A stretch of 9,237 bases of DNA, taken from assembly GCA_019247135.1 (NCBI GenBank), contig JAFAPL010001002.1, positions 1 through 9,237 on the forward strand, given 5' to 3'. The number at the start of each line of letters is the position of its first letter. Within the stretch, counting starts at the first letter, position 1. The translations under genes were made by a program, and so were the position numbers. A model generated the notes under the pieces. It was not told the DNA's origin. It did not search any database and was given only the letters and a program-made list of their open reading frames with translations. The stretch is from Chloroflexota bacterium. Lineage in GTDB: Bacteria > Chloroflexota > UBA6077 > CF-72. Below, piece by piece: positions 5,724 to 6,686 of the stretch.

Positions 5724-6686
5724 ATGCCAAAAAGCCGCGTCCGCGCGCGGGCAGATAAGAGCGCGGCCATCGACTCGCTCGCCGAGCGCCTGAGTAGCGC
5801 CGAGATCGCTGTACTCACCGAGTACCGCGGTCTGAGCGTCACGGAACTGCAGGACCTGCGTGGCCGCTTGCGTCCCGCCGGTGTCGAGTACGTCGTCGCC
5901 AAGAACACGCTCGCCCGCTTCGCCGCCGAGCGCACCGGTCGCATGACGATCGTTCAGGACCTGGTCGGGCCAACGGCAATCGCCTTCGGCAGCGACCCGG
6001 TCGCGACCGCGAAAGCCCTCCAGGACTACACGCGCACCAATCGTATTTTCGTGCTCAAGTCCGGTCTGCTGGGCGATCGGCGCATCGAGGCACGCGAAGT
6101 CGAACAACTGGCCAGCCTGCCTCCAGCCGATGTGCTGCGAGGTCGGCTCTTCGGCATGGTTGTCAGCCCGCTACAAAGTACGGTCACGGTGCTGTCCGCA
6201 CCACTCGCATCCCTGGCGCGCCTGCTGGAAGCGCGTCGCAAGCAACTCGAAGAACAGGGCGGCGCAGGCGCCGCCGAAGGAGAAGGAACTGGCATGGCGT
6301 CCATTGACGAACTGGTTGCGAATCTTGGAGATCTGAAAGTCCTCGACCTGGCCAACCTGGTCAAGCGACTCGAGGAGGAATGGGGCGTCTCGGCCGCGGC
6401 TGTCGCGGCTCCCGTCGCCGCTGGTGCGGCGCCCGCCGCTGATGGCGCCGCCGCCGCTGCGCCGGCCGAGGCACAGACCGAGTTCGACGTGGTGCTGAAA
6501 GACTTCGGCGCCAAGAAGATCGAGGTCATCAAGGTTGTGCGCGAGCTGACCAACCTTGGTCTGAAGGAAGCCAAGGACCTGGTCGAGGCCGCGCCGAAGC
6601 CGGTCGTCGAAGGTGTGGCCAGGGACGCGGCCGACGGAGCAGCTCAGAAGCTGCGCGACGCGGGCGCAACCGTCGACGTCCAGTAA
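5724..6686 (+). CDS. rplJ-rplL: Fused ribosomal stalk proteins L10 and L7/L12 in one reading frame
   Basis: One open frame of 320 residues encodes both proteins of the GTPase-recruiting stalk. Residues 1-177 are a complete L10: ALTEYRGLSV-type segment at 30-40 (VLTEYRGLSV), EYVVAKNTLARFAAE (54-68), VGPTAIAF (81-88), the LASLPPADVLRGRL stretch, and a C-terminal helix ending LLEARRKQLEEQ that normally binds L12 dimers. Residues 178-190 are a Gly/Ala/Glu linker. Residues 191-320 are a complete L7/L12: N-terminal dimerisation domain (MASIDELVANLGDLKVLDLA), an Ala/Pro-rich hinge (about 226-248), and the factor-binding domain with KIEVIKVVRELTNLGLKEAKDLVE. No stop codon separates them. AGGAGGT (5704-5710) serves the L10 start. 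Two separate genes are usual in bacteria, so this is either a true fusion or a lost or mis-read stop. Confidence 0.93.
   Translation: MPKSRVRARADKSAAIDSLAERLSSAEIAVLTEYRGLSVTELQDLRGRLRPAGVEYVVAKNTLARFAAERTGRMTIVQDLVGPTAIAFGSDPVATAKALQDYTRTNRIFVLKSGLLGDRRIEAREVEQLASLPPADVLRGRLFGMVVSPLQSTVTVLSAPLASLARLLEARRKQLEEQGGAGAAEGEGTGMASIDELVANLGDLKVLDLANLVKRLEEEWGVSAAAVAAPVAAGAAPAADGAAAAAPAEAQTEFDVVLKDFGAKKIEVIKVVRELTNLGLKEAKDLVEAAPKPVVEGVARDAADGAAQKLRDAGATVDVQ
6277..6296 (+). promoter_or_regulatory. Internal ribosome-binding site and start codon for free L7/L12
   Basis: AAGGAG (6277-6282) and AAGGA (6283-6287) lie in tandem, and the second is six bases from an in-frame ATG (6294-6296). That ATG encodes residue 191 of the fusion, exactly the normal N-terminus of L7/L12. 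Initiation here would give a 130-residue free L7/L12 from 6294-6686. The linker uses GAA and GGA codons where this GC-rich genome would usually prefer GC-ending ones, consistent with selection for the ribosome site. Whether it is used cannot be seen from sequence alone. Confidence 0.75.
6294..6686 (+). CDS. rplL: 50S ribosomal protein L7/L12, internal in-frame product
   Basis: This is the free L7/L12 expected if the internal start at 6294 is used: 130 residues, within the family's usual range. The N-terminal domain (1-35) is the part that dimerises and binds the L10 C-terminal helix. The hinge (about 36-58) is nearly all Ala, Pro and Gly. The C-terminal domain (about 60-130) carries KKIEVIKVVRELTNLGLKEA, which recruits EF-Tu, EF-G and other GTPases. 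A stalk needs four or six L12 copies per L10, so extra free copies would be needed in addition to the fused one. It is listed separately because it is a nested start within the fusion frame. Confidence 0.7.
   Translation: MASIDELVANLGDLKVLDLANLVKRLEEEWGVSAAAVAAPVAAGAAPAADGAAAAAPAEAQTEFDVVLKDFGAKKIEVIKVVRELTNLGLKEAKDLVEAAPKPVVEGVARDAADGAAQKLRDAGATVDVQ

Follow-up and report, generated by a model that had tools for sequence, protein, structure and literature searches.

We describe here a fusion of the ribosomal stalk proteins L10 and L7/L12, encoded by a single uninterrupted reading frame in a 9,237-nucleotide contig from a Chloroflexota bacterium (hereafter the window, meaning the whole stretch of DNA that was analysed). 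The fusion is conserved, recurs in several lineages and retains a Shine–Dalgarno (SD) sequence and a start codon at the join between the two proteins. The most likely reading is that this is one gene with two translation starts, giving rise to the L10–L12 fusion from the first and to free L12 by internal initiation at the second. The features on which our interpretation is based are as follows.

5724..6686 (+): fused rplJ–rplL reading frame, L10 plus linker plus L12, 320 amino acids, conserved in relatives
5724..6254 (+): L10 (uL10) part, residues 1–177, ending in a long C-terminal helix; from profile match, structure comparison and model
6255..6293 (+): 13-residue linker, residues 178–190, QGGAGAAEGEGTG; pLDDT below 50 at 179–192; doubles as the putative ribosome-binding site
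6277..6287 (+): internal SD, AAGGAGAAGGA, ending 6 bases ahead of ATG 6294; from sequence and duplex energy
6294..6296 (+): putative internal start ATG, L12 codon 1 (residue 191); conserved as M/V in the protein and ATG/GTG in the DNA
6294..6686 (+): nested L12 (bL12) frame, 130 codons plus stop, the proposed free L12 product; from profile matches
5703..5709 (+): SD-like GAGGAGG ahead of the L10 start ATG 5724, with 14-base spacing; from sequence and duplex energy
6698..6719 (+): terminator-like hairpin 3′ of the fused gene; pattern match only

The frame at 5724–6686 (+) contains no internal stop codon. Its L10 part matches the NCBIfam model NF000955 over residues 11–174 with 144.2 bits (cut-off 85), which places it in the uL10 family, and its L12 part matches TIGR00855 over residues 191–319 with 130.8 bits (cut-off 84.4), which places it in bL12. 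A Pfam search of the 320-residue product finds L10, the L12 dimerisation domain (PF16320) and the L12 C-terminal domain (PF00542). The stop codon that parts L10 from L12 in an ordinary rplJ–rplL pair is absent, positions 5724–6683 being free of stops. The initial annotation, made from the letters of the window, had described a complete L10 (residues 1–177) joined in one frame to a complete L7/L12 (191–320), and both curated models bear this out. It was also right to conclude that one L12 N-terminal domain is covalently tied to the end of the L10 helix. The linker has the length of 13 residues and the position (6255–6293) that were given for it, but the description of its composition as Gly/Ala/Glu is inexact in that the first residue is Gln. 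What was correctly seen as a true covalent fusion was, however, only part of the picture: the SD in the linker DNA and the conserved start codon at residue 191 were missed, as was the recurrence of the fusion, which has become fixed in several lineages, most of the sampled kin of Nitrospira among them.

The fused gene has secE, nusG, rplK and rplA as upstream neighbours (profile matches), and the duplex energy at the L10 start is −11.9 kcal/mol (bases −22 to −4). Directly beyond it lies a convergent prephenate dehydrogenase-like gene (6829–7812, −); rpoB, the usual neighbour of rplL, does not adjoin. A search for known leader RNAs found no Rfam family above its gathering score anywhere in the window, and a pattern search found no promoter within positions 3200–6900. 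Three degenerate direct repeats of 57 bases each, with a spacing of 95–100 bases, occupy the end of the window (8986–9237).

The L10–L12 fusion is a real and conserved feature. A protein (P0002) that is 100% identical over 320 residues is encoded on another contig (6,674 bases; NCBI/JGI/ENA/nr), although the two contigs may share a sample, and three whole genomes carry the fusion at 82–85% identity. The best 120 of 1,940 database relatives, with lengths of 303–348 residues, all contain the three Pfam domains (L10, L12_N and L12_C), as do the best 120 of 3,340 matches to a query from the more distant relative G185. Because an identical protein occurs on another contig and the listed relatives all contain both proteins, we regard the fusion as conserved and not as an error. 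The deletion of a stop codon by a sequencing or assembly artefact, for which it could be said that the window is a single contig, is rejected as very unlikely and carries almost no weight with us, given the identical protein, the many fused relatives and the location of Nitrospira-kin fusions on contigs longer than 4 Mb. Relatives with a stop codon within the linker had been named in the initial annotation as evidence that would speak against a fusion; the junctions of three close genomes contain none, nor do those of the next two (L084 and L087). A stop codon is present at the rplJ–rplL junction in unfused outgroups of the window's class.

Within the Chloroflexota, a phylum sample of 400 genomes around a ‘Chloroflexi bacterium’ locus (L020) gave matches in 386, and the L10–L12 frame is unbroken in at least six of the 400 (G153, G241, G169, G073, G105 and G185); the L10 of G105 has its 5′ portion in a different frame. 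The class of G153 is represented by 29 genomes, 24 of them matched, and its fused members are the same six. Unfused genomes of the window's class have a stop codon after L10 and, in most cases, an SD ahead of L12, and at locus L086 the two proteins are parted by one in-frame TAG. At L087, the L10 part is split over two frames at about 1921–2368 (−), possibly reflecting a frameshift in the assembly.

A screen of 146 loci for frames of at least 230 residues containing both proteins also identified the fusion at L042 (Nitrospira sp. RSF12). We sampled 246 genomes from the class of this locus, which we take to be Nitrospiria based on the locus title and general taxonomic knowledge. Matches were found in 229 genomes, and the junction is unbroken in all 150 that are among the matches listed. 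A further 30 genomes of the class, all outside these 150 and taken largely from those with low scores, were searched again: 15 are unbroken, 13 have stops or separate genes, one is undecided (G596), and in G425 the gene is split between contigs, yet the frame is open past the L12 Met. For the class overall, at least 165 of the 246 genomes are fused and at least 13 are unfused; some twenty further genomes with two matches are probably unfused too. In eight Nitrospira-kin genomes, the fused gene lies on a contig longer than 4 Mb, corresponding to about a whole genome.

The fusion is also found in the Acidobacteriota, where 143 of 149 genomes sampled around a ‘Candidatus Solibacter’ locus matched and at least four are unbroken (G687, G725, G672 and G700). 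Their join DNA, read by eye, is tcctcAGGAGGAGaaATG, ataataGGAGGAacaacaATG and gaAGGAGGtggtcccATG, with the last shared by two genomes. Among the matches listed, no fusion was seen in 118 genomes from the phylum of G415 (34 matched at 1e-40), 150 from the phylum of a Kaistia locus (57 matched at 1e-40) or 199 from the phylum of a Paenibacillus locus (38 matched at 1e-55), searches that more divergent fusions would escape. A scan of viral contigs (17 loci, frames of at least 230 residues checked) found no fused relative. One viral-classed contig, L134 (IMG/VR 3300043778_000098), contains at about 2460–3283 an L10-like frame that ends at 2909 and an L12 frame that starts at 2906, such that stop and start overlap; the long adjoining ORF looks phage-like by eye. 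More L12 matches occur in viral contigs L130–L133 and L135.

In a tree of 89 loci constructed from L10 plus L12 (LG+G4, ultrafast bootstrap), the window groups with L081–L084 and L087 (support 98). The fused locus L098, from G185, falls elsewhere, surrounded by unfused Chloroflexota; the support of its own node is 52, and a node with support 87 sets a large group containing L098 apart from L085, L086 and L117, which are unfused. The fusions of the Nitrospira kin fall into a single clade (98), which excludes 13 unfused members of the class. The Acidobacteriota also form a clade (98), within which L293 is located among unfused members (64) and L294 is placed with L295/L296 (74, long branches). 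As read from this tree, the fusion would have arisen at least four times, or five times as the tree is drawn, with the nodes within the Acidobacteriota being weak. The fused Nitrospira clade contains no member with a stop codon, suggesting selection on the tether itself.

The features of an ordinary L12 start are present at the join. In the window, the join DNA gccGAAGGAGAAGGAactggcATG contains AAGGAG (6277–6282) and AAGGA (6283–6287), followed by ATG at 6294. The predicted anti-SD pairing there, −8.1 kcal/mol, is the strongest among the 11 internal in-frame ATG, GTG or TTG codons of the ORF, the next being −6.6. Relatives with differing linker peptides still have an SD at the join (ggaggagagaacATG, ggaggtggagatATG, caggagaggtaaacATG, caggagggtacgggaATG and gggagaggatacgggcATG), and the join of a separate fused lineage, gaaggagagggagcaactGTG, likewise has both SD and start. 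Of 211 listed fused proteins, 181 have M at the first position of L12 and the remaining 30 have V (178 M were counted by script, and 33 exceptions read by eye are 30 V and 3 M); the adjacent linker residues vary.

At the DNA level, 161 loci were examined, of which 43 were not called fused (L042 and L147 are the same genome). The L12 start codon is ATG in 117 and GTG in one of the 118 fused loci, which comprise 7 from Chloroflexota and 111 from Nitrospira kin and are mutually related, so that counts among them are not independent. The GTG was directly observed only in L098; 29 of the 30 V residues are known as protein only. Pairing energies of −7.3 kcal/mol or stronger are predicted at the L12 start in all 118 loci (mean −8.8); among 3,450 start-type codons at other in-frame positions (mean −3.25), 3.7% reach this level. 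A GGAG, GAGG or AGGA core is present in 117 loci, the exception being L251. In 79 loci, the SD at the L12 start is the strongest among the in-frame start-type codons; in the other 39, at least one such codon elsewhere in the frame has a stronger one. Fused loci of the Nitrospira class found later and the four Acidobacteriota loci, all read by eye, are additional to these counts; a start codon is present at each fused junction that was read. A conserved SD and start codon, as expected inside the frame of a gene with internal initiation, are seen in the 118 loci for the DNA and in the 211 proteins for the start residue.

Could these signals be mere remnants? If only the full-length fusion were made, the SD and ATG would survive from the ancestral spacer between the two genes, and there would be a single L12 on each ribosome. 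Consistent with this, the gene is one open frame without a stop, and shuffling synonymous codons gene by gene yields p ≤ 0.05 in only one of seven Chloroflexota and none of the 111 loci from Nitrospira kin (median p, 0.22 and 0.31), because the linker peptide (KGEG, GGGD) itself forces an SD-like string. We nevertheless consider synthesis of the fusion alone to be unlikely. Signals of no further use should have been eroded across lineages this divergent, but the start residue is confined to M or V, and SD and start codon are kept in all of the separately arisen fusions. The codons used in the linker also argue against it. In Nitrospira kin, 110 of 111 loci use AAA for the Lys that precedes the SD, compared with 23.6% of other Lys codons in the same genes, and the Gly codon after this Lys is GGA or GGG in 107 of 107, compared with 49% elsewhere; four loci in which the linker Gly is replaced by Glu GAG still spell GAGGAGG. 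When 66 representatives with less than 90% nucleotide identity were drawn from 110 Nitrospira-kin loci, all 62 linker Gly codons were GGA or GGG, the strongest codon bias among 17 conserved Gly columns; for the linker Lys, 65 of 66 codons were AAA, likewise the strongest bias among 27 Lys columns.

Two further properties of the L12 start region were examined. Averaged over the 111 Nitrospira-kin loci, 94% of other segments are more strongly folded than this region; the corresponding value is 72% in the window itself and 68–99% in the seven Chloroflexota loci. The A/G-rich SD sequence itself may be the cause of this low folding. Pro, Ser, Ala and Thr as second residue suit removal of Met, and one of these four follows the L12 start in all 111 Nitrospira-kin loci. 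In L098 and L293, the second residue is Asn, which is unsuited to Met removal.

The number of L12 genes bears on whether free L12 must come from the fused gene. A PF00542 search gave a single match per genome for nine members of the Chloroflexota class, of which six are fused, and a single full match for each of 22 further fused genomes. No second full L12 gene was found by this search in these 28 fused genomes (6 + 22), for which completeness was not given and eight of which carry the fused gene on a contig longer than 4 Mb. Partial matches in G485, G552, G407 and G506 cover 24–39 of 67 positions, two of them over the cut-off, and were rejected as full L12 genes. In the Nitrospira kin, G485:C1:271760-271873 matches 35 of 67 positions of the L12 C-terminal domain within a 105-residue open frame, and G552:C1:1202249-1202320 matches 24 of 67 within a 159-residue open frame, both just over the cut-off.

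The alignment of the L10 part with T. maritima L10 (1zav_A) runs along the dimer-binding helix up to residue 177 of 180, and that with the mycobacterial L10 5o60_I, presumably from M. smegmatis, up to residue 167 of 175. A model of the fusion (mean pLDDT 75.6) shows a single helix at 135–178, a low-confidence stretch at 179–192 and the L12 N-terminal helix from 194; judging from this model, the linker is probably disordered. A model of a Nitrospira fusion was poor (pLDDT 64.8) and was excluded from our conclusions. In other bacteria, the number of L12 dimers on each L10 is two, three or four, corresponding to 4–8 L12 copies, with three dimers in T. maritima and M. smegmatis (PMC10931766). Since the fused gene is the sole full L12 gene found in the genomes searched and other bacteria hold 4–8 copies, free L12 is to be expected, and on the sequence evidence it is very probably still made from the fused gene.

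Free L12 could in principle also be released from a single chain by a protease cutting in the linker, producing L10 and L12 in a 1:1 ratio. The low model confidence of the linker, as seen for disordered stretches, and its richness in Gly, Ala and Glu fit such cleavage. It would, however, supply one L12 per L10 as opposed to the 4–8 of other bacteria, the linker varies in sequence and length among lineages with no common cleavage motif apparent by eye, and the conservation of the start codon and SD would be left unexplained. We therefore view proteolysis as an improbable source of L12. SD-like strings within genes have also been proposed to slow ribosomes, and the internal SD might then serve to pause ribosomes that are making the fusion and not to initiate translation. 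This has a very slim chance of being correct, as pausing provides no reason for the retained ATG or GTG codon or the open local structure, and does not explain the second residue compatible with Met removal in Nitrospira kin.

Our two-start model can be summarized as follows. The stop codon of rplJ would have been lost, with the ribosome-binding site of rplL retained and turned into linker codons. Initiation at ATG 5724 would produce the L10–L12 fusion, such that each L10 bears one covalent L12, and initiation at the internal SD and ATG 6294 would produce free L12. The free protein would dimerise with the tethered copy, which is presumably located at the end of the L10 helix, and would occupy the remaining dimer sites on that helix. 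The resulting stalk would be a mixture of tethered and free copies, probably arranged as three dimers with one tethered and five free L12, a ratio of about 1:5.

Several known systems resemble parts of this scheme. The ordinary rplJ–rplL pair of E. coli and B. subtilis has the same two proteins in the same order, and an SD ahead of the L12 start. It differs in having a stop codon, separate genes and a separate L10, whereas the fused gene has no stop, each L10 bears an L12 and the rplL site is in frame. In the E. coli infB gene, encoding IF2, in-frame internal initiation yields a short form. Genes of this type share with the proposed scheme a single frame, two start sites and a short product that is the C-terminal part, but the short product proposed here would correspond to the whole of an ancestral protein, made from a site that once belonged to a separate gene. 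The three-dimer stalks of T. maritima and mycobacteria have an L10 helix that can be aligned with the fused L10 part, but the L12 copies are free there. Coupled translation of the ordinary rplJL pair leads to a fivefold excess of RplL over RplJ (PMC10666635), an excess that we infer for the fused gene as well.

We found no report of an L10–L12 fusion in searches of the open-access literature and provisionally regard it as unreported. Database names for the fused ORF are L10 in some sources and L7/L12 in others; under either name alone, one of the two proteins can look missing.

On balance, we favor the view that a tethered stalk evolved repeatedly, in Nitrospira kin and in several lineages of Chloroflexota and Acidobacteriota, and that every ribosome in these organisms has one covalent L12 paired with free L12, both supplied by one two-start gene. 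If this is true, the covalent L10–L12 connection would alter stalk assembly, with one copy always present and fixed in place. In the Nitrospira kin, a cultivable and ecologically central group of nitrite oxidisers and their relatives in which most sampled members are fused, the required number of free L12 copies and their exchange could then be studied in a natural setting. The fused gene would also show that a gene fusion can preserve an unequal protein ratio, as we propose for L10 and L12, by turning the ribosome-binding site of the lost gene into a linker.
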